DNA of 64,000 nucleotides from Acidobacteriota bacterium (GTDB lineage Bacteria > Acidobacteriota > Vicinamibacteria > Fen-336), in contig QHVM01000087.1 in NCBI GenBank assembly GCA_003223555.1, positions 1 to 64,000 on the forward strand, given 5' to 3'. A model generated the notes under the pieces. That model saw only the letters and a list, made by a program, of their open reading frames with translations, was not told the origin of the DNA and made no database searches. Both the position numbers and the translations under genes were made by a program. Shown one piece after another: positions 21,773-38,772 of this stretch (position 1 is the stretch's first letter; each line of letters begins with the position of its first letter).

Positions 21773-22767
21773 GACGCCCGGCCTTCTCCCCCTCCCGTTG
21801 GCTCCCGCTCCTCGCCTGCGTGGGCCTGTTCGGCCCGACGCCGGCGGCGCAGGCCACGACCCCGTGCGACACGGACCCCAACCGGGTCCTCTTCACGCCC
21901 ACGGTCGATCCGACCTCGCTCAACAAGCTGCTGTCCCGGCTGGGGAACCAGACGCTGAGGACTCCGAACACCGCGCTCACCCTCCCCGGCGTCTGCGTCA
22001 ACCACCAGATCCCGCTGTCCCTGGGCGTCATCACCCTTCCCCTCGGCAGCGCCCCGTTCACCGTGACGCCGTCGCTGGGTTCGATCCAGGTCGACCTCGA
22101 CCTCCAGGGACCGTTCCAGATCGGGATCGACGGCGGGCGCTACAAGGCCGTCGACTGCGATTCCGCCTGCCAGATCGACATCCCCTACCTGGGCAACATC
22201 GTCAACGGCTGCGAGATCGAGGCCGGGATCGTGGGGCCGATCCTGAGCGGCCTCAACGCGTCGGTCTCGTGGGACGACATCCACGTGACCCAGGTCGCCG
22301 ACACGTGCGTGCTCGGGGACTGCACGGCGGTGCACCCGCTCGAGAGCTCGCGGGTCACCCTGACGAACTTCGACGTCGACCTGACCGGCTTCGGGTCGTG
22401 CAAGGTGTGCCTGCCCGATCCGTTCCCGTCGGCCTGCTTCGACCCCTGCCAGGGCATCGACCCCGTGATCGAGCAGCTCCTGGAGCCCGTCCTCGAGAGC
22501 CAGATCTCGAACGCCTTCGTAAACCGCGCCGGAGAGGGCACCCTGATCAACGTCTTCTCGAACCAGATCACCAAGGACTTCGGCTGCATCCCCATACCCG
22601 AGGTGCGCAACTGCCGGAAGGGCACGGGCGTCGCCCAGGCCGGTCTCGTCCGCGGGCCGAGGGACCACGGCGTGAACGCGCTCTTCTATTCGCTGCCGCT
22701 GGGCGTGGCGGGAGTGCTGGCGCTCAGGCTGCGCCGGCGGGCGGCTCCGAAGGTGCCGCCCGGGTAG
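21769..22767 (+). CDS. Cys-rich exported protein with C-terminal membrane/sorting-like segment
   Basis: 332 aa, ATGA overlap with the foldase-like gene. It has a signal peptide ([21 protein letters not shown]...AQA). The mature part has many Cys (TTPCDTDPN, VDCDSACQIDIPYLG, VADTCVLGDC, GSCKVCLPDPFPSACFDPCQGID) and beta-rich amphipathic strands (SLGSIQVDLDLQGPFQIGIDGG). The C-terminus is FYSLPLGVAGVLALRLRRRA, a short hydrophobic stretch then basic residues, like a protein-sorting tail. No family is recognised. Strict coupling to the upstream gene suggests a client-helper pair. Its last 82 nt overlap lgt on the other strand. Confidence 0.65.
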   Translation: MRRPAFSPSRWLPLLACVGLFGPTPAAQATTPCDTDPNRVLFTPTVDPTSLNKLLSRLGNQTLRTPNTALTLPGVCVNHQIPLSLGVITLPLGSAPFTVTPSLGSIQVDLDLQGPFQIGIDGGRYKAVDCDSACQIDIPYLGNIVNGCEIEAGIVGPILSGLNASVSWDDIHVTQVADTCVLGDCTAVHPLESSRVTLTNFDVDLTGFGSCKVCLPDPFPSACFDPCQGIDPVIEQLLEPVLESQISNAFVNRAGEGTLINVFSNQITKDFGCIPIPEVRNCRKGTGVAQAGLVRGPRDHGVNALFYSLPLGVAGVLALRLRRRAAPKVPPG

Positions 22768-23522
22768 AGAAGGACGGCGGCGGCGCCGGCGAAGGCCCCG
22801 AGCAGGACGCTCGCGAGCTGGGTGAGGCTCAGCACGAACGGTCCGCCGAAGCTCAGGAAGATCCGGGGATCGCCCCGCAGCGTCTCGTGGAAGAAGCGGA
22901 ACGCCGGATAGAGGATCAGGAAGGTCAACGCCAGCTGGCCCTCGAAGCGGCGGCGCGTGCGCATCCACCAGAGGAGGGCGAAGATCGCCAGCACCCCAGC
23001 GGCGTCGTAGAGCTGCGCGGGGTGCGAGCGGATCCCGAAGTTGACGTTGCTCGGAGCGCCACCCGCCACCAGGCCGAACGCACTCGTGGTCGGCCGCCCG
23101 TAACAGCAGCCGTTCAGGAAGCATCCGATCCGGAGGAAGAAGAGGAAGGGCAGCCAGGCCACGGCCAGCGTGTCGGCGGCATCCCACGCCCGCAGTCCCC
23201 GGAGCCGGATGTAGACGAGCCCGGCCGCCGCGGCCAGCAGCAGTCCCCCGTACATCACCATGCCTCCCCGGTCCCACACCGCCAGCAGCGACCACCAGGG
23301 CTCGTCCACGTAGAGGGGGAGGTTGAAGAGCAGGCTGAGGCCGCGCGCGCCGGCCACCCCGGCCGCGAACGCGATGACGGCCAGCGTGAGCATCGCTCCC
23401 GGATCGAGACGCCGCCGCTGGATCTCGCGATAGGTCAGCCAGAAGCCGACCGAGCCGCCCAGGGCCAGCATGAGCGCATAGGAGGACAGCTCGATCGGCC
23501 CCACGTCGAGAACGGGCTTCAT
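22686..23522 (-). CDS. lgt: Prolipoprotein diacylglyceryl transferase
   Basis: 278 aa from ATG 23522 (MKPVLDVGPIELSSYALML); the 864-aa track ORF is a readback. It transfers diacylglycerol from phosphatidylglycerol to lipobox Cys in the inner membrane. About seven hydrophobic segments are visible; GARGLSLLFNLPLY, WDRGGMVMYGGLL, FFLRIGCFLNGCCYGRPT and HPAQLYDA match the conserved Lgt regions including the Lgt signature. It is the last gene of a five-gene minus-strand operon, sharing ATGA with the GT-C gene. The C-terminal tail after LLYPGG is an unusual extension overlapping the convergent gene. Confidence 0.92.
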   Translation of the reverse strand: MKPVLDVGPIELSSYALMLALGGSVGFWLTYREIQRRRLDPGAMLTLAVIAFAAGVAGARGLSLLFNLPLYVDEPWWSLLAVWDRGGMVMYGGLLLAAAAGLVYIRLRGLRAWDAADTLAVAWLPFLFFLRIGCFLNGCCYGRPTTSAFGLVAGGAPSNVNFGIRSHPAQLYDAAGVLAIFALLWWMRTRRRFEGQLALTFLILYPAFRFFHETLRGDPRIFLSFGGPFVLSLTQLASVLLGAFAGAAAVLLYPGGTFGAARRRSLSASTPATPSGSE

Positions 23523-25066
23523 CGTTCCCGCCGGCCCAGGACGGCGAAGTTGTCGCCGGGGTCCCGCAGCACCCACTGGAAGTGGCGGCCCAGGGCCGGA
23601 TCGGACCGCCACCAGGGTTCCAGGATGCTCGCCCAGTCCACGACGAACTGGATCGGCGATTCCAGCACGTAGGCCTGGTGGCGCCGCTTGCGTATGGCGC
23701 TCATCGCTTCGGGATTGACCTTTCCATCGAGGTTGATCGTACGGTCGTGGAAGAACCCGAGCGTCCCGGACTGGAAGGCGCCCACCCAGGTCTCGGCGCT
23801 CACGTGGCTTTCGACCCAGTCCACGTTGCGGAAGAGTGGGCCGCCCCGCCAGGGCCCCCGGACCAGCAGTCCATCCCTCAACACGAAGTTCCCGAGCAGC
23901 AGCGACGCGAGCAGAGGCAGGGCGAGGCGGGCGCGGGAGGCGGACAGGCGGGTCCAGAGCCCGAAAACGAGCGCACCCCATCCCAGGGCAAAGAAGGGCG
24001 ACAGGGGGAAGAGGTAGCGGCGCAGGAAGTAGGGCGCATCGAAGAACGGCACGTAGAAGGCCAGCAGACCCGCCGTGAAGAGCGACGCCATGAGCATCAC
24101 CGGTCCCCGCCGCGGATCCCACGTCCGCCGCCGGAGCGCGGTCCGGGCGGCGATGAGGGCGAGGCCCAACCCACAGACGGCCACGAACCAGCCGCGATGC
24201 TGGACCGGGTCGAACTCGAACGAGGCGACCAGCGTCGCCTGCTCGAAGAGCGCCACCGTGGCCGCGCCCAGGTTGGCGGCCAGCTCGCCCGTCCGCAGAT
24301 GGACGTAGCCGCTGGTGGGGACGATGCTGCCGAAGCGAAGCAGGTTGTAGAGGAGCCAGGGCAGGCTGACCGCGGCCGCGGCCACCGCCATGGCGGCGGC
24401 CTCGGCCAGACGGCGGCGCAGGCTCGTTCCCCCGCCCGCGGTCGCGAGGTGGGCCAGACCCGCGGCCGCCATCAGGAAGACCGCATCGTTGCGGGCCCAG
24501 AACGAGACGCCCAGCAGGACGCCGAGGGCCAGGCAGCGCGGCCACGGCCACGGTGAGCCCCGCGCGTGCCCGCGCGCGAAGAAGAGCGCGACCATCACCA
24601 CCGCGGCGGTGTAGAGGCCCGTCTCGAGCATGTTCATGCTGTGAGACAGGGCCAGGGGGCTCGTGAACCAGACGCAGGCGCCCAGCCCGCTGGCGGCGCG
24701 CGCCCCGTCGCCGGGACCCAGCACCTCCCGGCCCAGACGGTCGACGAGGAACACGGTGGCGGCGGCGATGGCCGTGGAGAAGACGATGAGGAAGCGTACC
24801 GCGGCCGCCCGGTCGCCTCCGACCAGCCAGAAGCACGCGGCCTGCAGCAAGGTGGCGAGCGGCTGGACGCCGTTGGTGGGCAGCGTCCCCGCGGCGGAGG
24901 TGAGGCCGCGGCCGAGGGCGAGGTTCCGGGCCACGGTCAACATGAGGTAGCCGTCTTCGCTGGGGAAGCTGCGGAACATCTCGGCGTCGGGGAAGGCGAC
25001 GGCGCGCAGCCGAGCGAAGAGCCCGAGCAGGAAGAGGCACGCGGCGAAGATCCGCAGCCCGGTCAC
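23519..25066 (-). CDS. GT-C fold (GT39-like) membrane glycosyltransferase
   Basis: 515 aa with about 11 hydrophobic segments. The first loop carries FPDAEMFRSFPSEDGYLMLTVARNLALGRG; the acidic SEDG/Y pattern in loop 1 is what GT-C enzymes use for catalysis and metal binding. A C-terminal soluble domain (HVSAETWVGAFQSGTLGFFHDRTINLDGKVN) ends the protein. Such enzymes use polyprenyl-phosphate sugars in the inner membrane to modify proteins, lipids or polysaccharides; donor and acceptor are unknown. It overlaps both neighbours (ATGA), tying it to the phosphodiesterase-like gene and lgt. Confidence 0.8.
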   Translation of the reverse strand: MTGLRIFAACLFLLGLFARLRAVAFPDAEMFRSFPSEDGYLMLTVARNLALGRGLTSAAGTLPTNGVQPLATLLQAACFWLVGGDRAAAVRFLIVFSTAIAAATVFLVDRLGREVLGPGDGARAASGLGACVWFTSPLALSHSMNMLETGLYTAAVVMVALFFARGHARGSPWPWPRCLALGVLLGVSFWARNDAVFLMAAAGLAHLATAGGGTSLRRRLAEAAAMAVAAAAVSLPWLLYNLLRFGSIVPTSGYVHLRTGELAANLGAATVALFEQATLVASFEFDPVQHRGWFVAVCGLGLALIAARTALRRRTWDPRRGPVMLMASLFTAGLLAFYVPFFDAPYFLRRYLFPLSPFFALGWGALVFGLWTRLSASRARLALPLLASLLLGNFVLRDGLLVRGPWRGGPLFRNVDWVESHVSAETWVGAFQSGTLGFFHDRTINLDGKVNPEAMSAIRKRRHQAYVLESPIQFVVDWASILEPWWRSDPALGRHFQWVLRDPGDNFAVLGRRER

Positions 25067-26703
25067 GGGGAGGCGACGTAGCCGAGGGCCCGCAGCTCAT
25101 CGAGGAGCTGGGCGTCGACGGGGGAGGTCTCCACGCGCCAGCTCGCCATCGTGCCCCAGCTCGGCACCGACCAGACGGGATGGTGGGAGCGGAATTCTGC
25201 CGTGAAGAGATCCGTCCGGGCCTGCCCGGCGAAGTCCTCGCCGGGGGGTAGACCGAGGGCGTACAGGACGGTGGGGGCAAGGTCCAGGACCGAGATCCCG
25301 CCCGCCCGGGCGCCCGGGGCGAGATCGCTGCCCCGGGCGATGAAGATGCCGTTCGTGTGCTCGTCGTGGGTACCGGAGATGCGGTTGATGTACATGACGA
25401 CGTCCTGGTAGGCCTGGCCTCCCGCGCGGACGGTGAGGGAGGGGTTCTCCAGGCTCACCTCGGCCGCCATGTCGGCCTGCGCGGGCAGTTGCGAGCGACT
25501 GATCCGGAGCACGGGTTGGCCCGACTCGTAGGTCAGTCCTTCGAGCGCCTGGGCCAGCCGGTCCAGCTCCGCGCGCGCCTGGTCCGGGGGGACCCTGCCT
25601 CCCGGCTCCCGGCCGGCCAGCGAGAGGCGCAGCCGCTTCAGCCGCGCGTGGTTGGGGCTGTCCACCGGATAGGCGACCGAGCGGGCGAAGTCCACCGCGT
25701 CGCCCTTGCGCACGAGGAAGCCGAGGTGCTCGAGCAGCCGCTCGGTGTTCACGATGACGAAAGGCTGCTCGGGGCCGGACACGAAGCCGTGGTCGGACAC
25801 GACGAAGACGTTGCTCCCGGCGGGGCACGCCGAGAGGAAGTCGCCCAGCGCCCGGTCGGTCGCCTCGTACACGGCGGGGATGACGTGCGACCAGCGAGCC
25901 ACGTCCTCCGGGGTCGTGCCGGGATATTTCTCCGGCTCGAGGAACTTCCAGTAGCGGTGGCTCGCGATGTCGACCGTGCGGAAGTACACGAGGAAGAGGT
26001 CGAAGCCCAGCCCGACGAGGCGGCGCGCCTCGTGGGCCATGATGCGGTCCCGAAACGCCCCGTCCTCCATCCACGGATCGGGGCTGGGCAAGCGGCCGCC
26101 CAGGTCGGGGTACTCGTTGCGGGCCTGCTCCCGCTCGCGCTCGAGGGCGGGGAGATAGCTCGCCGGGTGGACGATGCGGTCGACCGCGAGATGGGCGCGG
26201 TCGGTCACGACCACGCCCTGGATGTCCTCGGCCGGCCAGGAGGCCCACCAGCCGAGCACGGCCGTGCGCAGGCCGGCCCGCGAGGCCATGTTCCAGAGCG
26301 CGGGCACCCGCCGCACGGCGGACGAGACGGGGACCATGCCGTTCCCGCCTCCGACCACGAAGTCGGTGACTCCGTGCTCGGGGGGCGTGCGGCCGGTAGC
26401 GATCGTCGTCCAGATCACGGGCGACGCGCCGTAGGCGGTCTTCAACACGGCCGACGTGCCGGCGTCGGCCAGCCGCCGCAGGTTCGGCAGCCGTCCCTCG
26501 TCCCACAGGCGCCGGATGACGGTCCATTCGGCGCCGTCGATGCCGACGACCACGACCGGGGGACGGGTGCGGTGGCGCGGAGGGAGGGAAGGCAGGGCCG
26601 GCCCGTCGGGGCGGACCCACCGGCACGCCCACGGCAGCAGCGCGAGGAGGGCCAGGCTCAGGTGTCGTGCCCCCCGGCGCGGGTTGGACGGTCGCGAGGC
26701 CAT
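25063..26703 (-). CDS. Alkaline-phosphatase-superfamily phosphodiesterase/pyrophosphatase-like protein
   Basis: 546 aa with an N-terminal hydrophobic leader ending LPWAC (a weak lipobox). The superfamily core is clear: VVVVGIDGAEWTVIRRLWDEGRLPNLRRL (metal Asp), ASPVIWTTIATGRTPPEHGVTDF (nucleophile Thr region), VYFRTVDIASHRYWKF, VFVVSDHGF and SGTHDEHTNGIFIARG (metal His). These match type I phosphodiesterase/nucleotide pyrophosphatase proteins. Placed between a GT2 and a GT-C gene, it may act on a nucleotide- or lipid-linked sugar or transfer a phospho-group in the periplasm (inference). It is 7 nt after the GT2 stop. Confidence 0.85.
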   Translation of the reverse strand: MASRPSNPRRGARHLSLALLALLPWACRWVRPDGPALPSLPPRHRTRPPVVVVGIDGAEWTVIRRLWDEGRLPNLRRLADAGTSAVLKTAYGASPVIWTTIATGRTPPEHGVTDFVVGGGNGMVPVSSAVRRVPALWNMASRAGLRTAVLGWWASWPAEDIQGVVVTDRAHLAVDRIVHPASYLPALEREREQARNEYPDLGGRLPSPDPWMEDGAFRDRIMAHEARRLVGLGFDLFLVYFRTVDIASHRYWKFLEPEKYPGTTPEDVARWSHVIPAVYEATDRALGDFLSACPAGSNVFVVSDHGFVSGPEQPFVIVNTERLLEHLGFLVRKGDAVDFARSVAYPVDSPNHARLKRLRLSLAGREPGGRVPPDQARAELDRLAQALEGLTYESGQPVLRISRSQLPAQADMAAEVSLENPSLTVRAGGQAYQDVVMYINRISGTHDEHTNGIFIARGSDLAPGARAGGISVLDLAPTVLYALGLPPGEDFAGQARTDLFTAEFRSHHPVWSVPSWGTMASWRVETSPVDAQLLDELRALGYVASP

Positions 26704-26710
26704 GGGCGAT

Positions 26711-27589
26711 TCAGGTCCGGTGCTTCTGGGGCGCGGCCACCGCGGCGGGCAGGGCCGGACGCGGCGGCGGCGTCCGGCGTGGAGCGGCCTGCGTGCGGTG
26801 AGCCTGCTGCTCCGCCCACAGGTCGTCGGCGATGAGGACCTTGTCGAGGAACACCTTCAGGAGGATGCACAGGTAGCGGCGGCCCATCTCCCGGATCTTG
26901 AGGTGGGAGCTGCCCCACGTGCGGCCGGACCACCGGATGGGGATCTGCGCGATCGAGAAGCCGCGGACGAGCGCGCTCAGCGACATCTCGATCGTGATGT
27001 TGAAGTGGCTGGCCCGGTAGGGGCCGCATTCCCGGACGACTTCGGCCCGATAGGCCTTGAAGGCGTTGGTGAGGTCGTTGAAGGGCACCCAGAACATGAG
27101 CTGGACGAGCCGGTTGACGATCCGGTTCGCGACCAGCTTCCCGAGCGGGTAATGGTCGACCGAAGCTCCCCGCACGAAGCGCGACCCGAACACGCAGTCG
27201 TAGCCCTCCTCGATCTTCCGGTAGTAGGCGACCACGTCCTCGGGCTCGTCGGAGAGGTCGGCCATGAAGATGACGATGACGTCGCCGGTCGCCGCCTCGA
27301 GGCCGGCCCGGATGGCCCGTCCGAACCCGGCCGGCGGCGGCGGGCTGAGGCAGGAGATCGCGGGATCCTCGTCCGCCCGCGCGCGAACCACCCGCTCGGT
27401 CGCGTCGGTGCTGTTGTCGTTCACGACCACGATCTCGTACGGGATCCGGTGCCGGTCGCGCAGCGTCCGGGTCAACTGGTCCAGGCAGGGCCCGATGTTG
27501 TCCTGCTCGTTGAAGGCGGGGATCACCACCGACAGCTTCAGGCCGCCCGCCGCCGCGCCGTCGGCCGGGCTCAGGCCCCTACTCGGCAC
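26711..27589 (-). CDS. Family 2 glycosyltransferase (polyprenyl-phosphate sugar synthase-like)
   Basis: 292 aa using a GTG at 27589, the last candidate start before the conserved [23 protein letters not shown]; this overlaps the epimerase gene by 19 nt. The GT2 motifs are [43 protein letters not shown] (DxD-like) and [10 protein letters not shown], then [39 protein letters not shown]. This resembles dolichol-phosphate mannose synthases that charge polyprenyl phosphate for GT-C enzymes, which suits its operon. The C-terminal 30 residues are Pro/Ala-rich and look disordered. Confidence 0.87.
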
Positions 27590-28638
27590 CGCAGGCCCTC
27601 GCAGATCTCGGCCATCATGCGCTCGAGGTCGTAGCTGTGATCCCACCCGGGGTAGTGCTCCCGGAAGCGGCGGCTGTCGCTCACGTACCAGATGTGGTCG
27701 CCGTTACGGTTCTGGTCGACGTAGCACGTCCGCATCCGCCGGCCCACCACCTTCTCGGCCAGCTCGATGGCCTCGCGGACCGAGCAGTGGATGCGGCGTC
27801 CGCCGCCCGCGTTGTACACCTCTCCCGGCCGCGGCCCGCGCACGAAGTGGAGGAACATGCGGGCCAGGTCGGCGGCGTGGATGTTGTCGCGCACCTGCTT
27901 GCCCCGGTAGCCCACGACGGGATACTCGTCGCCGGTGATCGCGCACTTGACGAGGTAGGACAGGAACCCGTGCAGGTGCGTGCCCGCGTGGTCGGCGCCG
28001 GTGATGCAGCCGGGGCGGAAGCACACCGTCGCCAGGCCGAAGTAGCGGCCGTACTCCTGCACGAGCACGTCCGCGGCGAGCTTCGAAGCGCCGAGGAAGC
28101 TGTGCTTGCTGCGGTCCACGGACATCGTCTCGTCGATGCCGTGCGCGAAGTAGGGATGGTCGTCGGCGAGCTCCCAGCGCGTTTCCCGCTCCACGAGGGG
28201 AAGCCGGTTCGGCGTGTCGCCGTAGACCTTGCTCGTGGAGGTGAAGACGAAGGCCGCGCGCGGGCAGTGGCGCCGGGCCTGCTCGAGCAGGAGCAGGGTC
28301 GCGCGGGCATTGATGTCGAAGTCGGTCTCCGGCTCGCGGGCCGCCCAGTCGTGGGACGGCTGGCCCGCGGTGTGGATCACGCAGCGGATGTCCCGGCCGT
28401 AGGTGGCGAAGATGCGGGCGATCGCCTCCCGGTCCCGGATGTCCACGTCGTGATGGGTGTAGCCGGGCAGGGTGGCCTCGAGCTCCCGGCGCTTCCAGGC
28501 CGTCGAGGCCTCGCCGCCGAAGAAGACGGCCCGCATGTCGTTGTCGATGCCGGCGACCTGGAAGCCGTTCTCCGCGAACAGCCGCACCGCGGCCGAGCCG
28601 ACCAGACCCGCCGAGCCGGTGACGAGGGCGACGTCCAT
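27571..28638 (-). CDS. NAD-dependent epimerase/dehydratase (CDP-paratose 2-epimerase-like)
   Basis: 355 aa from ATG 28638 ([25 protein letters not shown]). It is an extended short-chain dehydrogenase: the glycine-rich NAD loop, [60 protein letters not shown], then a region where Tyr/Lys of the active site would be replaced or shifted ([23 protein letters not shown]), [25 protein letters not shown], and the C-terminal sugar-nucleotide domain. The [13 protein letters not shown] pattern is typical of CDP-paratose/tyvelose 2-epimerases. It supplies a nucleotide sugar to the glycosylation operon of which it is the first gene. Confidence 0.88.
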
Positions 28639-28830
28639 TGGCGATTCCCGGGCCGCCGCCGGCGGCCCATCGGCACGAAAGCGTGGGAGGGTCCGATAAG
28701 ATAGTACGCCCCGCATCGGCGCGTCAACCGGCTCGACGGAGGGCCGCGAACGGAGTCATGCCCTTGCCCCGCGTCCGGCCCCTGCTGCCCGCCCTCATCA
28801 ACTTGGCCATCGTGGGCGTGATGATCGCGC

Positions 28831-29841
28831 GTGGCATCGGCCAGAGCCGCGAGCGCTACCGGACCGAGCCAGGCCGCCGCGCAGTTTCTCGCCACCCGCC
28901 AGGCGTCCGACGGGTCGTGGGACGACGGTGGCGCCGGGGCGTCGTTCGCGCGGGCCGGCCAGCCGGGACGGGTCGCGCCCACGATGCGTGTCCTCCTGGG
29001 AGTCCGGGCAAGCGGGTACGCGGGCGAGCCGTTCTACCGCCGCGGCCTCGGCTTCGTGCGCCGGCACCAGGAGCGCCTGCGCGGATGGCTTCACGGCGAC
29101 CGCGGCGGCGATCCGGGCGATCTCGAGCCGACGGTGGACGCGCTCGCCATGGGGTCACTGCTGCTCGGGCCGGAGCCGGACGGAGGGGCCGAGCTGCGGT
29201 CGATCCTCCGCGCCCAGCAGACTCCGCGGGGGCTCTATCGCCACGGCCTCGGCCCGCCGGGCGCCGCCGCCGGCCGGCGCGTCCTCGTCGGCGACAACGT
29301 CCTGTTGCTGGGCGTCCTGCCCGCCCTGGGGATGGACACCACGGAGCTCGCCGCCGCCATCCGGAGCGAGCTGGACGAGGTCCCGCCGGCTCCGCCGAAG
29401 ACCTGGATCGTCCTGGCCTACCTCGGCTCGCTGGCGGCCCCGACGGGCGGCGCCGAGGCGCACGCGCTCGTCGCTCGTCTGCTCGACCGCCTCGAACCCT
29501 CCCGGCTCGGGCCGGTGGCCGCGCTCGACGACGTCGCGCTTTCGGCGTACCTCCGCGTCCGCGCCGACCAGTGCCTGCGCGACGCCGACGCCTGCAACGA
29601 CCTCAACGCCGCGGTGGCCGCCCTCCTCGGACGTCGCCAGGGCGACGGGTCGTGGCTGGCCCCGGCCGTCGCGGCGGTCGAGGGCGGCGGGATCGAGCCG
29701 TCCTCCACGGGATCGGCGGTGGAGACGACGGCGCTGGCGCTCGACGGCCTCGCGACCTACCGGCGCATACTCGACGGCCGGGCGAAGGGAATGCTCGGGG
29801 CGTCCCCGGCCGACGCCGCCGGGGCGGTCCTGCGCAGGTAG
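28831..29841 (+). CDS. Toroid-fold (prenyltransferase/squalene-cyclase-like repeat) protein, probably exported; 5' end doubtful
   Basis: 336 aa from a GTG that follows an in-frame TGA. It contains QW-like repeats (FLATRQASDGSW, LLGRRQGDGSW) and helical pairs typical of alpha/alpha-toroids, with YLRVRADQCLRDADACNDLNAAV and SAVETTALALDGLATYRRIL near the end. The protein at 31385-32704 shares these blocks, so the two are paralogs. No DxDD or other cyclase catalytic motif was found, so enzyme activity is unsupported. The paralog is a lipoprotein; here a matching hydrophobic leader (MPLPRVRPLLPALINLAIVG, from ATG 28758) lies in the preceding frame, so a one-base frameshift near 28,850 probably separates leader and body. 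Its 3' end overlaps the convergent GT-C gene by 85 nt. Confidence 0.65.
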   Translation: MASARAASATGPSQAAAQFLATRQASDGSWDDGGAGASFARAGQPGRVAPTMRVLLGVRASGYAGEPFYRRGLGFVRRHQERLRGWLHGDRGGDPGDLEPTVDALAMGSLLLGPEPDGGAELRSILRAQQTPRGLYRHGLGPPGAAAGRRVLVGDNVLLLGVLPALGMDTTELAAAIRSELDEVPPAPPKTWIVLAYLGSLAAPTGGAEAHALVARLLDRLEPSRLGPVAALDDVALSAYLRVRADQCLRDADACNDLNAAVAALLGRRQGDGSWLAPAVAAVEGGGIEPSSTGSAVETTALALDGLATYRRILDGRAKGMLGASPADAAGAVLRR

Positions 29842-31292
29842 AGCCTCTGGGGGGCGCCCCGGGGCCCGACCCGGGGACGGAAGCTGCCCGGTAGCGGCCC
29901 CGCGTAACGGTAGTGCGCCCGCAGCGTTTCGATGAACCGGTAGTCCTCGTAGTCGATCACGACCGCCGAGAAGCGCTCCCGGGCGAACGCCTCCTGGAAC
30001 GCGGGGACGAGGGTCTCGATCACGGACGGGATGCCGCTCTGCAGCGTCGTCAGGAGGTAGCCGTCGTGGGCGAAGCCCACCTTCCCGGCCAGGATCGGGA
30101 GGTAGCCGTGCATGGGCGTGTAGACCTCCCCGGGCAGCGCGCGAAGAGCGGCCACGAAGGCGTCGCCGTCCCTGACGTCCTGCGGGGTGGGGATGTGGCG
30201 GGCCGGATCGTAGGCCAGGAGGCGCAGTTGCAGGGCCGCCACGGCATAGAGGGCGAGGCCAGCCGGCTGCCAGCGGCCGCGGGCCGTACCGGCGTCGTGG
30301 AGGGCCAGGCCGAACAGGATGGCGAGCATGGCGTGGGCCGGCTGGAGCACGTTCAGCCAGCCGCCGCCGTGGAGGCGCGAGATCCAGGACGCCCCCAGCA
30401 TGCCGACGGTGAGGGTCGAGTAGAAGACGAACCCCGACGCGCGCCCGCCCCACGCGTCGCGTAACGCGCGCGAGAGGTGCACGAGGCCCATGGCCACCGC
30501 GGGGGCGAGCGTCCAGCCGATGTCGTCGCGCCAGAAGCCGGCCAGCATCGCCTCCTGGCCGAGGCCGTGCCCGTTCGGGACCCTGACCGTGTAGAAGAAG
30601 TACCACCCGCCGGTGAGGAGGCTGAAGAACAGCGTGGTGCCGGCGATGATGGTTCCACTCACCGCGGGCAGCGCGAAGCGACGCCAACCGGACTGCTCGA
30701 ACATGACGTAGAGCGTCAGGGAGGCCAGCGGGAGCAAGGCGGTCTGCTTCGTCAGGTAGGCGAGGCCCATCATGACGCCGGCGAGCGCCGAGTGCCGGAT
30801 CGAATCTCCGGAGCGCACGAGCAGGAACGCGGCGAGCAGGAAGAAGAGGAACAGGTTGTCGACCCGCCCGATGTCGAACCACGCGCCCGAGAGAGGGTAG
30901 GTGCCCGCCAGGAACCCTGCGCCGGCGAGCCCGCAGAAAGCGCTTCCCGTCTCCCTTCGCACCAGCAAGAAGGTCAGCCCGAGGCACCCGACCGCCGAGG
31001 CAAGCGAGACGAGCCGCGGGGCCAGGAAGCCCACGCCGATGAGGCTGGCCAGCGCGGCCGACGAGTACGTATAGAGCGGCGTGTACGGGTAGGGGATCCA
31101 CTCCACCGAGGGGGCCACGAAGAGGCTCTTTCCTGCCAGCACCCGGCGCACGCTCTCCACGGTCCAGCCTTCGAGCCACTCCAGCTCGTAGGGAAAGCGG
31201 ATGCGGGACAGGGTGGTGTAGGCGAGGAGGACCAGGAGGTACGCGCACGCCGCCCCGAGCAGGACGCGGGCCACGGTTTCCAGACGGTTCAT
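29757..31292 (-). CDS. GT-C fold membrane glycosyltransferase-like protein
   Basis: 511 aa with about 11 hydrophobic segments. Loop 1 has RIRFPYELEWLEGWTVESVRRVLAGKSLF; the EWLEG acidic pair is the usual GT-C catalytic position. Further marks are YPYTPLYTYSSAAL, YPLSGAWFDIGRVDNLFLFF and GLAYLTKQTALLPLASL, resembling PMT/ArnT-type transferases that use polyprenyl-phosphate sugars. The C-terminal soluble part (GDAFVAALRALPGEVYTPMHGYLPILAGK) is like other bacterial GT-C proteins. It is flanked on both sides by the toroid paralogs, converging with one and diverging from the other. Confidence 0.8.
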   Translation of the reverse strand: MNRLETVARVLLGAACAYLLVLLAYTTLSRIRFPYELEWLEGWTVESVRRVLAGKSLFVAPSVEWIPYPYTPLYTYSSAALASLIGVGFLAPRLVSLASAVGCLGLTFLLVRRETGSAFCGLAGAGFLAGTYPLSGAWFDIGRVDNLFLFFLLAAFLLVRSGDSIRHSALAGVMMGLAYLTKQTALLPLASLTLYVMFEQSGWRRFALPAVSGTIIAGTTLFFSLLTGGWYFFYTVRVPNGHGLGQEAMLAGFWRDDIGWTLAPAVAMGLVHLSRALRDAWGGRASGFVFYSTLTVGMLGASWISRLHGGGWLNVLQPAHAMLAILFGLALHDAGTARGRWQPAGLALYAVAALQLRLLAYDPARHIPTPQDVRDGDAFVAALRALPGEVYTPMHGYLPILAGKVGFAHDGYLLTTLQSGIPSVIETLVPAFQEAFARERFSAVVIDYEDYRFIETLRAHYRYAGPLPGSFRPRVGPRGAPQRLYLRRTAPAASAGDAPSIPFARPSSMRR

Positions 31293-31384
31293 GAGAGTTG
31301 CGCCGCGAGACGGCTCGCCGCCTCCAGCCGAGTCGGACTATGCTATGGCGCGCCCGACATTTATTTCAAGAAATGGGAGGCCAC

Positions 31385-32704
31385 GTGCCGGACCGGAGCC
31401 GTGCCGCTGCGCTCGCGTGCCGCCGGATCGTGTCTTGCGCGATCCTGGCCGCGCTCGGACTGCTCGCCTGTCGCGGCCGCACGGAGCCTCCGCCCTCTCC
31501 CGGCGAAGGAGCCGGCCAACCGGGGCATTCACCCTCGGCGGAGGAGGCGAACCCGCTCGATACCTACATCGACAAGGCGGGCGGATACCTCGTCTTCACC
31601 CAGGCCGAGGACGGCTCCTGGCCCTACTTCCACAGCCGGACACCCGACTTCGCGAACCCCGAGCCGCACGCCAACCTCTTCGGCACCATCGTCACGCTCA
31701 TGAACATGACGCATACCGGCTTCGAGGCCTCGTCGGCCTTCAAGCGGGGCGCCGACTTCGTCCGGGGGCGCATGACGGAGGGGTATGTGTGGTCGCTCTA
31801 CGAGCCTGGCAAGTTCGGGGCCGAGTCCTGGCTTGAGCCCGACGCCGACACCACTGCGGTCGCCCTCACCATGCTCTCGGGAAGGCTCGACGTCAAACCA
31901 CCCCAGCTCAAGAAGCTGCGTACACTCTTCGATCGCTACCGGACGGCCGACGGTCTCTACCGCACGTACTTCGACGGGTTCCACGGGACGAAAGGCTTCG
32001 TCCTCGACCGCAACGTCCCATCGACCGGAGTGAACCTCAACATCCTCGGTTTTTTCGGCAACTACGAGATGCCGCGGGCGAGCCTCGTCGAGGGCCTGCG
32101 CTCCGCGATGCAGCCGGACCGGTATTGGGAGAAGACGCCCTTCTATCACTCGCTCGCGGTCCTGGCCTGCCTCGCCTCCAACGCCGTCGAGCACGGCGCC
32201 CCCGAGGCCGGCGAGCTGCAGCGGAAGCTGCTGGCCGATTTCGCCGCCGGCCCGGGCAAGGACCCGTCCTTCGCTGAGAACATGCCGACCCTGGAGCTGG
32301 CGGCCTACGTCAAGGCACGCAGCCACGCCTGCCTGCTCGATCAGTCCCCTTGCCCGGACCTGGACATGAACGTCTTCCAGCTCGCGCGCCGCCGCAAGGC
32401 GGACGGATCCTGGGCGGCGACGCCTTTGTACGAATACGACATCAACCAGCAGGCCCTCGAGGCGTTCATGCAGCGGCGGGACTTCGTGATCCGCCGCAAG
32501 CGGGGCGGCGCCGCCTACGACGTCGAGCGGGCGCTGGCCGCCCCCGGCACGGCCCATTACTACGATGGCTCGCCGGCCGAGACGACATCGTTTGCGCTCA
32601 AGGCGCTGGTCTTCTATCGCGAGCTGCTCAACCACCGCAGCGCGTTCATGCTCCAACCGGGCCGCAGTCCCGGCACCCCCAGCCCCTCCGCCACTCCTCA
32701 TTAG
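31385..32704 (+). CDS. Toroid-fold lipoprotein of unknown function
   Basis: 439 aa from a GTG with GGGAGG four bases upstream; ATGs at 31340 and 31373 lack a ribosome site and would spoil the signal. The leader ends ILAALGLLACRG, a good lipobox, followed by a Pro/Gly/Ser linker. The body has YLVFTQAEDGSWPYF, RTADGLYRTYFDGFHG, NVPSTGVNLNILGFFGNYE, ARRRKADGSWAATPLYEYD and SPAETTSFALKALVFYRELL, a helical toroid pattern as in squalene-cyclase/prenyltransferase folds but without their catalytic motifs. HACLLDQSPCPDLD aligns with QCLRDADACNDLN of the paralog at 28.8 kb, suggesting a conserved disulfide. Function unknown; GT-C neighbours suggest a cell-envelope role. Confidence 0.72.
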   Translation: MPDRSRAAALACRRIVSCAILAALGLLACRGRTEPPPSPGEGAGQPGHSPSAEEANPLDTYIDKAGGYLVFTQAEDGSWPYFHSRTPDFANPEPHANLFGTIVTLMNMTHTGFEASSAFKRGADFVRGRMTEGYVWSLYEPGKFGAESWLEPDADTTAVALTMLSGRLDVKPPQLKKLRTLFDRYRTADGLYRTYFDGFHGTKGFVLDRNVPSTGVNLNILGFFGNYEMPRASLVEGLRSAMQPDRYWEKTPFYHSLAVLACLASNAVEHGAPEAGELQRKLLADFAAGPGKDPSFAENMPTLELAAYVKARSHACLLDQSPCPDLDMNVFQLARRRKADGSWAATPLYEYDINQQALEAFMQRRDFVIRRKRGGAAYDVERALAAPGTAHYYDGSPAETTSFALKALVFYRELLNHRSAFMLQPGRSPGTPSPSATPH

Positions 32705-32851: not shown

Positions 32852-34588
32852 GTGGCCTCGTTCCTGGTGGCGGTGGCGATCTCCGGACGCGCCTCGGGCT
32901 CGTTCCTCATCGGCCTCTGGACCGGCACGCTGGTTGTGGCGGTCGCGGGCCTGGTGTGGAGCGTGCAGCGACGGCCGAGCGGTCCCAGGGACTCGGCCGA
33001 GCCCGCGCCGAAGGCACCTCGCCCCGGCTCTCTGCGATGGATGCTGCTGAGCGGCCTCGTCGCGCTCCTGCCCGTCGCGTACTTGACCCTGGCCGGCGAC
33101 TTCTTCGACGACTTCAACGCGATCGGCCATCGCAGCCTGATCGCGCAGTTCCAGAACGACGTCTTCCCTCCGCGGCACCAGGTCTTTCCCGAGTACCCGT
33201 TCCGCTACCACTACGGGTTCAACCTCCTGGCCGCGGCGCTGACCGCCCTCTTCCGGCTGTCCGTGCCGTGGGCGATCGACCTCCTCGTGATCGTCTGCTT
33301 CCTGTGGAGCTGGTGCCTGGCCTGGGTCCTGGGGGAGCGGCTGACCCGGTCGGGGAGCGGGGGCTGGACCGCGCTCGCGTCGCTGGGGGGAGGCGGCGCG
33401 TTCTTCTGGCTCATCGCCCACGCGCACTGGGCGAGCCAGGGGGCGGTCGGGATCGTGATCGGCGGCAACCGGATCAACTTCCCGGTGGTCATGTACTTCT
33501 TCCAGAAGCCCTTCACGCTCGGCTTCCCCCTGGCCCTGGCGGTGATGCTGGCGGCCTCGTTCCCAGCCCCCGGTCTCGGGTGGCTGCGGCGCAGCTCTCT
33601 CCTGGCCGTCCTGCTCGCGTCGCTCTACCTGGTGCAGGAAGAGCTGTTCGTGACCGTCGGCCTGAGCCTCGCCGCGCAGGAGCTGCTGCGCGAGCGGCAC
33701 CTGCGCGCCCTGGTGCCCGTGGCGGCGTCGTTGCCCCTGGCTGTCCTGATGGGCGGAGTGCTCTTCACGCCGATGCCCGAGCGGCACGGCGAGCTGCTCC
33801 GCGTGCGCTTCTGGCCGGCCCAGGGCGACCCCTGGGGGGTCCTGGCCTGGTACGCCCTGACGAGCGGGCTGCTGCTTCCGCTGGGCATCGCGGGCCTTTT
33901 CGCGACGCGGCGCCTGCGCACGCTGCTCCTGCTGCTCATGCTGGGCAGCTTCGGCGCGCCGCTGTTCTTCGAGAACCCCTACTCGTGGGACATCGTCAAG
34001 CTGGCGACGATCGGCGAGCTGGCGGCGGGCCTGGCCGCGGGATCGGTCCTGGCCGCGCTGGCCGAGAAGCCCACCTGGCCGCGCGCCTCCCTCCTGGCCG
34101 TGCTCGTGATCCTGCTGGTGGCGAGCCCGGTCGGCTACCTCGGCTACTGGATCCGCGAGATGGTCCGCCCGACGCCGGAGATCGGCCAGCCGCTCGCCAT
34201 GCAGCGCGACCTGCCCCGCGTCGACGACTGGGAAAAGGTGCTCCGGTGGCTGCGCGGGCAGCGGTCCCTCGAAGGCACGATCTACGCCATGAACCCCCGG
34301 CTCTCGCAGATGATCCTGCTCGCCGGCCTGAACGGGGCGGGCCCGCCGCGCTGGATCGACCTGGAGTTCGGCGTCCCGCAGGACCGCATCGACCGCCGGA
34401 GCGTCCTCCTCAAGGAGCTTCCGCGGGACCCGCGGGCGTGGCGGCGAGAAGGCGTCTCCTGGTTCGTGGTCGGGCCCGGAGAGCCCGTCGCGCCGACGGT
34501 GCAGGCCTGGGTCGCCTCGCGAGCGGCGCGCGCCGTCAAGGCCGCCGGTCCGTGGACGATCTATCACCTCGAGGCGCCCTCGCGCTGA
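32852..34588 (+). CDS. Polytopic membrane protein, GT-C-like
   Basis: 578 aa from the first standard start (GTG 32852), with about 12 hydrophobic segments. Loop 1 has DFFDDFNAIGHRSLIAQFQNDVFPPRHQVFPEYPFRYHYGFNLLAAAL, with acidic residues where GT-C enzymes keep theirs. Later come GGNRINFPVVMYFFQKPF, a soluble tail with DDWEKVLRWLRGQRSLEGTIYAMNPRLSQ and RREGVSWFVVGPGEP. Membrane-protein coding potential extends upstream in frame right to the TAG ending the toroid gene (LPLSCALLVLALPGLVLFGG), but that stretch has no ATG, GTG or TTG, so the real start is unclear. The exact family and sugar donor are unknown. Confidence 0.7.
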   Translation: MASFLVAVAISGRASGSFLIGLWTGTLVVAVAGLVWSVQRRPSGPRDSAEPAPKAPRPGSLRWMLLSGLVALLPVAYLTLAGDFFDDFNAIGHRSLIAQFQNDVFPPRHQVFPEYPFRYHYGFNLLAAALTALFRLSVPWAIDLLVIVCFLWSWCLAWVLGERLTRSGSGGWTALASLGGGGAFFWLIAHAHWASQGAVGIVIGGNRINFPVVMYFFQKPFTLGFPLALAVMLAASFPAPGLGWLRRSSLLAVLLASLYLVQEELFVTVGLSLAAQELLRERHLRALVPVAASLPLAVLMGGVLFTPMPERHGELLRVRFWPAQGDPWGVLAWYALTSGLLLPLGIAGLFATRRLRTLLLLLMLGSFGAPLFFENPYSWDIVKLATIGELAAGLAAGSVLAALAEKPTWPRASLLAVLVILLVASPVGYLGYWIREMVRPTPEIGQPLAMQRDLPRVDDWEKVLRWLRGQRSLEGTIYAMNPRLSQMILLAGLNGAGPPRWIDLEFGVPQDRIDRRSVLLKELPRDPRAWRREGVSWFVVGPGEPVAPTVQAWVASRAARAVKAAGPWTIYHLEAPSR

Positions 34589-36084
34589 GCCGCAGGAGAA
34601 GCAGGGACACCCCGGACAGGGCGAGCAGCCCGGCGTCCTGGACGCCGCGCGACACCCCGTAAACGTCGAGGAGCGGGACGCGCGGGCCGCCGGAGACGAG
34701 CAGCCTCGTCACGTAGGCGAGCGGGAACCGCAGCTCCGGCCCGAAGGCGTAGGTGGACATGACCACGTCGCTGAACATCGTGCCGGCCACGTTGACGGCG
34801 CACGAGACCAGCAGCAGCGCCCACGCGAGGAGCCTCGCCGCGCGTCGCCGCCAGTCGAACTCCACCAGGCCGATGGCGAGGAACGGCACGACGGCATAGA
34901 GATAGCGTGGCCCCCACAGGACGCTGAGCCCGCCCCAGAAGTACCGCCCGAAGCCGGGGACATGCGTCCCGAGCATGCTGTTGAAGACGAGATAGCTCGC
35001 GAACACGGCCAGGCAGAAGAGGTGGACGCTCCGGTGCCCGGCGGCGCGGAGCCCTTTGAGGTTCCCGGCGAGGCCCAGCAACAGCACCGGGCTGTAGAGG
35101 AACAGCCCCTTGAAGCGGCCGAAGCACAGCCGGGCCATGACCGCCGGGCTCGGCGCGTTCAGGCCCACCGCGGCGCCTTCCTGGAACGCCGCGAGGTCGA
35201 GGCCCTGGCGGGCCAGGGGCTCCGGCGTGATCCAGAACCGGAAGTGGTAGGGAGTGGCGAAGGGAGAGCCGAAGGCGGCCTGATGGTAGGCCGCCAGCAA
35301 AGCGAGGAGAGCCAGGAGCGGAAGCATCACGAGCAGCCTCGTAGAGAGCAACGAGGATCGCGCTCGGGTAGTCGATCGCGACCGCCGCGCCGAGCAGCGC
35401 GCCGCCGAGGAGGCAGGCCCGTCGGCGCGGACCACCCGACTCCGCCAGCCAGAGGATCGCGTGCCACGCCAGGCCGTAGGCCAGCGCCTGGCGCGAGTAC
35501 ATCGCGCTGTAGTAGAGGACCATGCTGCCGAGGCCGGTCGCCACGGCGGCCGCGGTGGCCGGCGCCCGCTCGACGCCATGGGCGGTCAAGAACCCGACGA
35601 GCCGGGCGCCGAAGGAGGCGGACAGCGGAGCCACCAGCAGCGCGGCCAGGAGGATCTGCAGGAGGTAGACGTCCGCGAGATGACGGGGGCCTGCCCCCGG
35701 CAGCGTCGCGGCATTCCTCAGGTAGTAGTTGCGGAACCTCCGGTTCGCGACGACGCGGTCGTCAAAGCGCGACAGCACCGGCTTCAGCGCCGCGTAGAAG
35801 GGCGCGGCGAGGACGGTCGCGCCCGGTCCTACTCCGGAGTAGACCCGTCCCTCGCGGACGCTGATGTCGTAGGCCTCGGTCAGGAAGACGACCTTCGGGT
35901 CGCGCTCGTCGCTGAGGACGAAGGTGTGGTCGTCGACGAGCCGGATGGCGGCCCGCAGCACCGAGTCCGACATCGATGGGCCGGTGGGGGCCACCAGCAC
36001 GACCGGCCAGGCCAGGAGCAGGAGGAACAGCGGCGCACCGCCGCGGGCGAGGGGCCGGGGCGGCTCAGCCGGCGGACGTGACAT
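34536..36084 (-). pseudogene. GT-C-like membrane protein, frameshifted
   Basis: The N-terminal frame (ATG 36084) encodes a leader, SGVGPGATVLAAPFYAALKPVLS, membrane helices and GLAWHAILWLAESGG up to AVAIDYPSAILVALYEA. The protein then continues in another frame as LLVMLPLLALLALLAAYHQAAFGSPFATPYHFRFWITPEPLA, HVPGFGRYFWGGLSVLWGPRYL and ends at 34536. The shift is near 35,340-35,360 (one extra or two missing bases). Repaired, it is about 515 aa with roughly 11 helices, similar to uncharacterised bacterial GT-C-like proteins. It overlaps UbiA by 20 nt and the convergent membrane protein by 53 nt. Whether the lesion is biological or a sequence error cannot be decided here. Confidence 0.65.
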
Positions 36085-36952
36085 CGGGGTCTGCGGCCGG
36101 GGAGCCGCCGGCCGGGCCGGTCATCGCGATGGCGCGGGAGAGCGCGAGCGTCACGATCAGGATGGCGAACAGCAGGCGGTAACGGCGGCGGAAGCGCAAG
36201 AGGAGGCCGGGGTCGTCGAGCGCTCGCGGCAGGCCGGCCACGAGCCCGGTGTAGACGGCGGCCGCAGCCGCGCACGCGGCCCACATCGCGACGGACGGCT
36301 GGTAGGCGGCCAGCAGCGCGAGCGCCCCGTAGTGGATGGCGACGACGAGGCCCAGGGCCCGCGTCCGCCCCGCGCGGACGACGAGGTGCCGCAGCGAGGC
36401 CTTGCGGTCGGCGTCCCAGTCCATGATCTCGTTGAAGGTGCCCCCCGAAAGGTAGAGGAGCCCGAAGAGGACGCCGCCCGGCCAGTGGCGGCGAAGATCG
36501 CCCCCGGCCACGAGCACGCCGGCCGCGAAGTAGCTGAAGCCCGCGGTGAAGTGGGCCAGCTCGCTGCCGAGAAGCCGCCGCTTCAGCCGGATGGTCGGAT
36601 GAGAGTAGGCCATGCACACGACCTGGCTTCCCAGGAGCAGGATGCGCACGCGGGACGGCAGGAAGAGCACGCTGGCCAGGAAAACCGCGGTGAGGACGAG
36701 CGTCTGGTTCCTCAACCGGGGCAGGCGGCGGGGGCCGGCGACCGATTTCCTCGGGTTGAGCGAATCGGTGTCGTAGTCGCACAGGTCGTTGAAGGAATAG
36801 ACCGAGAGAACGTGAGAGGCGTAGGCGACAGAGTAGAGGAGCAGGAGATGAAGGGCGGGAAGGCCCGGCTGGCTCAGGACCCCCACCGCGCCGGGCACGA
36901 GGACCTGGCCGCTCTCGTAGAGCCGGAGATGCTCGAGGGCCTTCACCCTCAC
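36065..36952 (-). CDS. UbiA-superfamily prenyltransferase
   Basis: 295 aa from a GTG within GGTGAG that overlaps the stop of the upstream GT-C gene (another GTG lies two codons on). It has about eight hydrophobic segments and the two Asp-rich diphosphate-binding motifs: FNDLCDYDTDSLNPRKS (NDxxDxxxD) and FNEIMDWDADRKASL. Members condense a prenyl diphosphate with aromatic, ribose-phosphate or glycerol-phosphate acceptors. Its position inside a GT-C operon favours a lipid-carrier or lipid-modification role, for instance making a polyprenyl-phosphate sugar like decaprenyl-phosphate phosphoribosyltransferase, but the acceptor is unproven. Confidence 0.88.
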   Translation of the reverse strand: MRVKALEHLRLYESGQVLVPGAVGVLSQPGLPALHLLLLYSVAYASHVLSVYSFNDLCDYDTDSLNPRKSVAGPRRLPRLRNQTLVLTAVFLASVLFLPSRVRILLLGSQVVCMAYSHPTIRLKRRLLGSELAHFTAGFSYFAAGVLVAGGDLRRHWPGGVLFGLLYLSGGTFNEIMDWDADRKASLRHLVVRAGRTRALGLVVAIHYGALALLAAYQPSVAMWAACAAAAAVYTGLVAGLPRALDDPGLLLRFRRRYRLLFAILIVTLALSRAIAMTGPAGGSPAADPDVTSAG

Positions 36953-38772
36953 CGCTCGGCTCCCGCCGTGGGCGGCCAGCCGAAGACCGTCACCTCGGGC
37001 GACGAGGCCAGGGCGACCAGCTCGGCCGAGCCGGCCAGCTTGTCGTAGAGGCCCTCTTCCCCCGGCAGCTCGAGCGAGCGGTGATAGACGACGTAGTCCA
37101 CGCCGAAGGCGCGCAGGCCCGCGAAGGCCTCCGGCGCCGGCAGGGCGTCGATGAGCCTCTGGGCCTGCAGCCGGGTGCGGGGGAAGTAGCCGTGGACGCC
37201 GTTGACGATGTTCTGCCGGTGGTAGGTCTGCCGGTTCATGTAGACGAGCTCGCGGTTCCACTCGAAGAGGTCCTGGCTGTCCCGGTAGAGGGCGCCGCCG
37301 GGCCGGCTGGGCAGGTCGAGCAGCACGTGTCCCCGCTGCCCGGCGAAGAACACGCTGACCAGCGGCTCCGGCGTGGCTAGGCGGGAGCCCACGAACGACT
37401 TGAGGGGGAGCGGGACGTTCTCGGCCAGCACCACCAGCGTGACAAGGAGCAGGATGAGCCGGCGGCGGGACGGCGGTTGGAACGCCGGAGAGGCGAGGAG
37501 CCGTTCCAGGCCGAGGGCGGCCGCGAGCACCACCGCGAGGACGCTGAGCGCGAAAGCGCGGCACGGCACGCGCAGGACGCCGGCCGCGGGCAGCCAGCGG
37601 TACGCGGGCAACATCAGGTTCGGCAGCAGGCGATGGCCGACGGAGAGGAACGGGCCCAGGGCCACGACGAGGCCGGCGAGGTACAGCGTGAGCAGCTCCA
37701 GCCGGAAGCGGCGGGCCGCGCCCAGACCGATTCCGGCCAGCACGTAGAGGCCGAACCCCAGGAAGGCGCAGCGGCGCGTGTAGACGAAGTATTTGACGTC
37801 GTCCGGGCTCGACAGGCGGCCGAACACGGTCACCGCGTCCTCGCTCTGCAGGCTCTGCGGCTGCACCGCGCCGGCGTGGATCATCTGCCGCGTGCGCTCG
37901 GCGATCTCGGCCGCCACGACCGGCCAGCTGAAGGGATAGACGAGGTTGTTCTCGAGCGTCCGCAGCAGGTCCGCCGGCTCCAGGCTGTGCACCTCGGCCA
38001 GGAAGACCGGGTCCCAAGGGTTGGTGAAGTTCGCGCTCGCCCTGGCCGCGGCGTAGAAGCCGAAGAAGGGGGCGGCCACCGCGGCGAAGAGCAGTCCCGC
38101 GACGGCGAGCGACGGAGAGTCGATGCGCGGCCGGGGCCGGCGTGCCGACAGATGGCCCCCGAGCAGGGCGAGGGCGGCGAGGAGGCCGAAGAGAAAGACG
38201 TAGGCCGAGAAGTACACCTGGACCGCTCCCAGGACGGCGGCGATCGTCAGCCGGCGGCGCTCGCCGGTCGCCAGGTAGCGCTTCCAGTCGGCGAGCGCCA
38301 GCAGGGCGACGAAGAAGAAGCTCGTGTGCGGGCTGTCGATGTTTCCCAGGACGTAGTTGGAGGCCGGGAAGGCGAGGCCGGCGAACGCCGCCGCGGCCGC
38401 GTCACGCACGTACAGGCGCGCGAGCAGGAAGACGCCCAGCGCGTCCAGGGCGAGCACGGTGGACAGGAATAGGCCGTACGCGCGGGCGTCGTCGCGCGCC
38501 AGGAGCTTGAAGCCGATGAAGAGGGCCGAGGTGCCGACCGCCGACTCGCCAAAGCCGAAGACGCCCGTCGCCGGATAGAGCGGCCGGCCCACGTCCTCGT
38601 GCCGGACCGCCCCCTCGATCCGGCTCAGCATGTAGTTGGGCAGGGCGATGCCGTTGAGCCAGGTGTCGCAGTTGCCGGGGAGCCGGCCGTGGAGCGCCGG
38701 CGGCAGGAGCAGGAGCGCGAAGAAGGCGAGGTAGGCCAGGCCGGCGATCCCCGGCCGAGGGCCGCCCTTCAT
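36949..38772 (-). CDS. GT-C/YfhO-like membrane protein (paralog 2)
   Basis: 607 aa from ATG 38772; the 880-aa ORF includes upstream shadow. About 12 hydrophobic segments. Loop 1 is HGRLPGNCDTWLNGIALPNYMLS, later AGLAFPASNYVLGNIDSPHTSFFF, VYFSAYVFLFG and the C-terminal soluble domain with ELVYMNRQTYHRQNIVNGVHGYFPRTR and FGVDYVVYHRSLELPGEEG. These same blocks occur in the adjacent gene at 38769-40589, so the two arose by tandem duplication. YfhO-like proteins are implicated in glycosylating lipoteichoic acids or lipids, but for this lineage the role is unknown. The genes share ATGA. Confidence 0.78.
   Translation of the reverse strand: MKGGPRPGIAGLAYLAFFALLLLPPALHGRLPGNCDTWLNGIALPNYMLSRIEGAVRHEDVGRPLYPATGVFGFGESAVGTSALFIGFKLLARDDARAYGLFLSTVLALDALGVFLLARLYVRDAAAAAFAGLAFPASNYVLGNIDSPHTSFFFVALLALADWKRYLATGERRRLTIAAVLGAVQVYFSAYVFLFGLLAALALLGGHLSARRPRPRIDSPSLAVAGLLFAAVAAPFFGFYAAARASANFTNPWDPVFLAEVHSLEPADLLRTLENNLVYPFSWPVVAAEIAERTRQMIHAGAVQPQSLQSEDAVTVFGRLSSPDDVKYFVYTRRCAFLGFGLYVLAGIGLGAARRFRLELLTLYLAGLVVALGPFLSVGHRLLPNLMLPAYRWLPAAGVLRVPCRAFALSVLAVVLAAALGLERLLASPAFQPPSRRRLILLLVTLVVLAENVPLPLKSFVGSRLATPEPLVSVFFAGQRGHVLLDLPSRPGGALYRDSQDLFEWNRELVYMNRQTYHRQNIVNGVHGYFPRTRLQAQRLIDALPAPEAFAGLRAFGVDYVVYHRSLELPGEEGLYDKLAGSAELVALASSPEVTVFGWPPTAGAER

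Follow-up and report, generated by a model that had tools for sequence, protein, structure and literature searches.

What might two related, exported toroid proteins be doing on either side of a glycosyltransferase gene? The window, which is the whole 64,000-nucleotide stretch of DNA analysed, comes from a soil Acidobacterium and encodes such a pair, here called P1 and P2 (Table 1). A sequence-only reading had described them as paralogues with a squalene-cyclase or prenyltransferase fold that lack catalytic motifs, one of them a lipoprotein, with a possible connection to isoprenoid-linked glycans. Taken as a whole, that description holds for the paralogy, the fold, the lipoprotein and the link to GT-C enzymes and isoprenoids, but not for the missing motifs in P2. 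The answer that we tentatively prefer, at a little less than an even chance, is that P1 and P2 are free exported domains of class II terpene-cyclase fold, acting together with GT-C and UbiA-family enzymes on a prenylated, glycosylated lipid or glycan of the cell envelope.

Two toroid paralogues and their gene neighbourhood

P1 and P2 are paralogues. BLASTP aligns them at 28% identity over 370 columns, nearly all of P1 (85 bits, E=1e-22), and the alignment takes in every sequence block by which they had been matched before: QAxDGSW, GLYR, the CLxDxxxCxDL cysteine pair and the C-terminal ETTxxALxxLxxYRxxL. Neither protein reached a family cut-off in Pfam, in NCBIfam or among PDB sequences, and a known-family identity, the outcome named in advance as counting against the earlier reading, was not found. 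Against the squalene-hopene cyclase (SHC) models, P1 scored 13.6 bits with PF13243 (Pfam; cut-off 26.1, E=0.035) and 18.2 bits with TIGR01787 (NCBIfam; cut-off 322.7, E=7.5e-4), and P2 matched neither. A first scan of genome contigs with both proteins returned no relatives, P2 was not found in 59 close relatives, and an SHC match is absent from the genome that encodes the pair. Two of the weak phylum matches, L003-L006, were discarded as relatives: one, L006, proved to be an ordinary SHC, and the other, L005, resembled noise.

The most likely start of P2 is the GTG at 31385, which has GGGAG just 5' of it, and the LLAC lipobox that follows identifies P2 as the lipoprotein of the pair. A homologue of Lgt, the prolipoprotein diacylglyceryl transferase, is encoded in the same envelope region (22689-23528, minus strand; Pfam LGT E=4e-48), adjoining a GT-C gene, and is possibly relevant because P2 is a lipoprotein.

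For P1, the start had been placed at 28758, but the ATG at this position is out of frame with P1, whose first in-frame start in the assembly is GTG 28831. As assembled, P1 has no signal. A hydrophobic segment (MPLPRVRPLLPALINLAIVGVMIAR...) does begin at ATG 28758, in a different frame from P1. GC content by codon position switches at about 28850 from the 28758 frame to the P1 frame, and two TGA stops lie immediately upstream in P1's own frame, so that a frameshift near 28850, either a sequencing error or real, probably links MPLPRVRPLLPALINLAIVGVMIAR to P1. Judged from this change of coding frame, the hydrophobic segment is probably part of the intact P1 gene, and P1 would then be exported or anchored. 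Together, the breaks in P1 and in the GT-C-like gene at 34536-36084 suggest assembly indel errors or decaying genes.

The GT-C gene reported between the two proteins is real, and neither P1 nor P2 is fused to a GT-C protein; both are separate exported proteins with GT-C genes adjoining. Elsewhere in the region, a protein of the type I phosphodiesterase/nucleotide pyrophosphatase family with a signal-like start is encoded at 25063-26703 (minus strand; Pfam E=1.5e-30). The interval 36949-40589 (minus strand) holds two adjoining long multi-TM ORFs, one reaching to about 38700 and the other at 38769-40589, without a Pfam match; by eye they look paralogous, with RLPGNCDTW near the N-terminus of both.

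Table 1. Features of the P1/P2 region, with positions in the window
Feature	Position	Strand	Basis
Further GT-C-like gene	23519..25066	-	Pfam PMT_2 E=4.7e-6; NF047440 E=1.5e-7
GT2, polyprenyl-phosphate sugar synthase-like	26711..27646	-	Pfam GT2 E=1.4e-27; best NCBIfam ArnC-type PRK10714, sub-threshold
NAD-dependent epimerase/dehydratase, nucleotide-sugar type	27571..28716	-	Pfam Epimerase E=1.3e-37
Putative P1 signal/anchor segment (MPLPRVRPLLPALINLAIVGVMIAR...), other frame, frameshift needed	28758..28850	+	GC3 switch, upstream TGA stops
P1, stand-alone toroid protein, 336 aa as assembled	28831..29841	+	BLASTP to P2; sub-threshold SHC matches
P1 TVDAL at the DxD(D/T)T column, motif lost	29131..29145	+	Alignment; pattern search without match
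GT-C glycosyltransferase between P1 and P2	29757..31292	-	Pfam PMT_2 E=1.2e-8
P2, toroid lipoprotein, 439 aa, GTG start	31385..32704	+	LLAC lipobox; fused-toroid HMM 41 bits; AF2 and Foldseek
P2 DADTT, class II terpene cyclase DxDTT motif	31841..31855	+	PDxDD(T) column of fused relatives
Multi-TM GT-C-like protein downstream of P2	32852..34588	+	ORF, no Pfam match, sequence character only
GT-C-like gene, frame change near 35340	34536..36084	-	GC3 switch
UbiA-family prenyltransferase, NDLCDYDTD and DWDAD motifs	36065..37012	-	Pfam UbiA E=1.5e-20

Relatives fused to GT-C proteins and their UbiA partner

Among 297 genomes of the phylum, the best non-self matches of P2 are fusions (E 1e-8 to 1e-9). 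These ORFs are about 920-1114 aa long, and in them P2 matches a C-terminal domain of about 320 aa, preceded by a multi-TM GT-C-like protein. Searching back with one fused domain gave P2 as the sole match in its genome (E=8e-8), and the fused-toroid HMM gave it 41 bits, making P2 a reciprocal-best homologue of the fused domain. The same HMM scores P1 directly at 1.6 bits, and P1 is linked to the fused domain solely through P2. Of 66 strongly conserved positions in the fused domain, 19 are retained in P2 and 24 in P1.

With an enlarged alignment as query and one genome per species, the fused domain was found at 74 loci in Acidobacteriota, Proteobacteria, Verrucomicrobia and Planctomycetes, and on no plasmid record. 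Its carriers include Acidobacteriota MAGs and cultured Mesorhizobium, Variovorax, Acidovorax, Hydrogenophaga, Tahibacter, Pseudomonas and Verrucomicrobium. Almost without exception, the complete relatives are fusions, mostly with 7-10 predicted TMs followed by the toroid. Their GT-C half matches the NCBIfam model of the LA_3751/LA_3752 putative glycosyltransferases (NF047440; E down to 1e-18), but below its curated cut-off of 200 bits and with no toroid in the matched model region; an open-access search found no paper describing LA_3751/LA_3752. For five of the six GT-Cs in the window, no direct orthology with the GT-C half of the fusions could be found, and only the frame-broken gene at 34536-36084 matches it in part, the fused-half HMM scoring its C-terminal half (the 35579-frame) at 17.4 bits (E=1.2e-7 in a two-sequence search).

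Surface-glycan genes lie near the fusion in several loci, among them those of Mesorhizobium and Pseudomonas, and encode GT2 and GT4 enzymes, GDP-mannose dehydratase, sulfotransferases and methyltransferases; the neighbours checked at L048 are not surface-glycan genes. Very long ORFs for multi-domain glycosyltransferases with a C-terminal GT4 recur near the fusion (L062, 3606-6209, minus strand; similar in 46 loci). A separate group of exported-looking alpha/alpha toroids in the phylum (L169, L170 and L175) has a cytochrome-like motif (CxxC/CxxCH) and lacks DxD[DT], and was set aside as another kind of toroid.

The most regular partner of the fusion is a UbiA-family prenyltransferase, present in 69 of 73 partner loci, nearly always immediately downstream on the same strand and almost always in a reading frame that opens at, or just ahead of, the fusion's stop, an operon-like linkage. 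The connection to GT-C enzymes and isoprenoids that had been guessed from the window is thus much stronger than expected. The first motif of the partner UbiAs is mostly NDxxGxxxD and the second is DxxxD, which is typical of UbiA enzymes that use prenyl diphosphates. The UbiA of the window, 3.4 kb from P2, scores 62 bits on an HMM of these partner UbiAs, whereas no non-module UbiA from the same genome or from six others exceeds 35. A tree of 53 UbiAs resolves it as sister to, and not inside, a clade of 26 module UbiAs with support of 99/96, although its long end branch makes the exact placement less sure than these values suggest. A genuine module UbiA is found at a contig end in a genome of the same family (G005). 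In the window, the parts (P2, P1, several GT-C genes and UbiA) are unfused and on both strands, so their co-function there rests on proximity.

Could UbiA and GT-C instead form a pentofuranose three-component system, consisting of a polyprenyl-phosphoribose synthase and a GT-C, with the toroid as an accessory? A UbiA-type enzyme together with a periplasmic GT-C bearing an extra extracytoplasmic domain is indeed the layout of the GT136 systems and of mycobacterial arabinosylation (PMC11127046). In the GT136 systems, however, the UbiA is a polyprenyl-phosphoribose synthase accompanied by a MATE flippase, and a CBM rather than a toroid forms the extra domain (PMC11127046). The partner UbiAs have DxxxD rather than R..E as their second motif and score low on DPPRS models, and placing the window UbiA in the DPPRS-like (phosphoribosyl-type) clade was rejected (p-AU 0.019), which makes this explanation very improbable.

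Toroid fold and cyclase motif

The AlphaFold2 model of P2 has a pLDDT of 66, and in Foldseek its best matches are class II terpene cyclases: AsDMS (E=4e-7), a drimenol synthase, the small SHC 8pak and MstE (E=1e-5). The full Mesorhizobium fusion was modelled at a pLDDT of 90 and comprises GT-C, beta-sandwich and toroid parts; its toroid matches 8pak (TMt 0.60), drimenol synthases including AsDMS, and MstE, and its GT-C part matches AftB, STT3 and PimE. The models place P2, whose own model is of moderate confidence, and the fused domain in the class II terpene-cyclase (TC-beta) toroid fold, in agreement with the squalene-cyclase-like fold proposed earlier. At the sequence level, the toroid has no significant profile match among terpene cyclases (best PDB HMM E=0.015, family cut-offs unmet). 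HMMER weakly pairs PDxDDT with PDVDDTA of SHC, and HHalign of the fused domain with SHC aligns one QW repeat at a probability of 4% and does not reach the DxDD region; for this reason, we do not claim sequence homology to SHC.

In 70 fused domains, the P and first two D of a PDxDD motif are conserved at 100% and the last D at 99%; many W/Y positions are invariant, as is WVYY. P2 has DADTT at this conserved column, and the chance of finding the motif anywhere in a shuffled P2 is about 1.7%. P1 has TVDAL there. The lack of catalytic motifs that had been stated for both proteins is therefore true of P1 and not of P2. DxDTT is the class II motif of the bacterial drimenol synthases (PMC9128629), in which its middle Asp is essential (PMC9128629, PMC12365925). 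The catalytic pair of AsDMS, D333 and Y427, is spaced by 94 residues (PMC12365925), and invariant Tyr residues lie 95-96 positions beyond the middle Asp of the fused domain.

A toroid may also be a carbohydrate-active lyase, hydrolase or epimerase that edits the glycan built by the GT-C. Carbohydrate enzymes with alpha/alpha toroids do appear among the Foldseek matches (AprG, cellobiose 2-epimerase, GH105, GH76 and MmpH), with AprG, cellobiose 2-epimerase and GH76 lower in the P2 list, and the glycan gene neighbourhoods would suit such an activity. Terpene cyclases nevertheless head the list for two models, the motif that is conserved belongs to terpene cyclases and no CAZy-type Pfam match exceeded its cut-off; we think this function improbable.

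In the main rival explanation, the toroid catalyses nothing and serves the GT-C as a module that binds its acceptor, a glycan or a lipid; DxDD would be a structural or binding relic, and P1 and P2 would be free-standing binding partners. We lean against it while regarding it as a serious contender. Extracytoplasmic binding domains are common in GT-C enzymes, for example the C-terminal CBMs of EmbC and of ORF12 in the GT136 system (PMC11127046), and the beta-sandwich beside the toroid in the fusions, the surface-glycan neighbours in Mesorhizobium and Pseudomonas and the loss of the motif in P1 all fit a binding role. Yet about 40 columns, the acidic motif among them, are invariant across 64-70 diverged domains; many hold polar, acidic or aromatic residues, and together they look like an active site. 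A binding role also leaves the UbiA partner unexplained.

A possible pathway and its known counterparts

If P1 and P2 are indeed terpene-cyclase-fold partners of GT-C and UbiA, a sequence of events can be proposed. UbiA would move a prenyl group from a prenyl diphosphate onto an acceptor at the cytoplasmic face of the membrane, and the prenylated product would then reach the periplasm. There the toroid would hold the prenylated substrate in an aromatic-lined cavity, and in the fusions and P2 the middle Asp of DxD(D/T)T may protonate and cyclise the prenyl chain. The adjoining GT-C would attach a sugar, drawing on a polyprenyl-phosphate donor that GT2 enzymes, such as the one encoded at 26711-27646, would supply. 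P1, which has lost the motif, may be a non-catalytic partner.

Parts of this scheme have counterparts in known systems. One is the merosterolic acid synthase MstE (6sbb-6sbg), a single-domain toroid of about 345 aa whose substrate is a prenylated head group, so that a prenyltransferase partner would be expected; unlike the proteins described here, it is biosynthetic, with no known tie to export or GT-C, and no significant sequence similarity to it was found. The HAD-TCbeta drimenol synthases, which include the best PDB fold match of P2 (AsDMS, 9m7d), share DxDTT, an Asp-Tyr spacing close to that of the fused domain and the fusion of a TC-beta domain to an unrelated enzyme, but their partner is a HAD phosphatase rather than a GT-C and their substrate is farnesyl diphosphate (PMC9128629, PMC12365925). 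Squalene-hopene cyclase (PF13243, TIGR01787) has the toroid fold, QW repeats and DxDD, but has two toroid domains in about 630 aa, and its cut-offs are unmet by P1 and P2.

The components of the GT-C/toroid/UbiA module are of known kinds. An open-access literature search found neither an account of their combination nor a paper that links a GT-C with a terpene cyclase. The unfused lipoprotein form in the window is a further variant of the module. In terpenoid metabolism, class II terpene cyclases are known as enzymes that work in the cytoplasm or face it, and we know of no extracytoplasmic example. The boldest form of the proposal, in which a cyclase domain within a GT-C cyclises a UbiA-attached isoprenoid outside the cytoplasm in a widespread envelope pathway, with the window as its dispersed form with a lipoprotein cyclase, seems to us rather unlikely. 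If true, it would mean extracytoplasmic terpene cyclisation coupled to glycosylation: a conserved, motif-intact cyclase outside the membrane, joined to a GT-C and accompanied by a prenyltransferase, would establish a novel class of modification for glycolipids or glycans. Such a module is encoded in Mesorhizobium, Variovorax, Pseudomonas, Tahibacter and Acidobacteriota, and its architecture points to an undescribed envelope pathway that unites sugars and isoprenoids.
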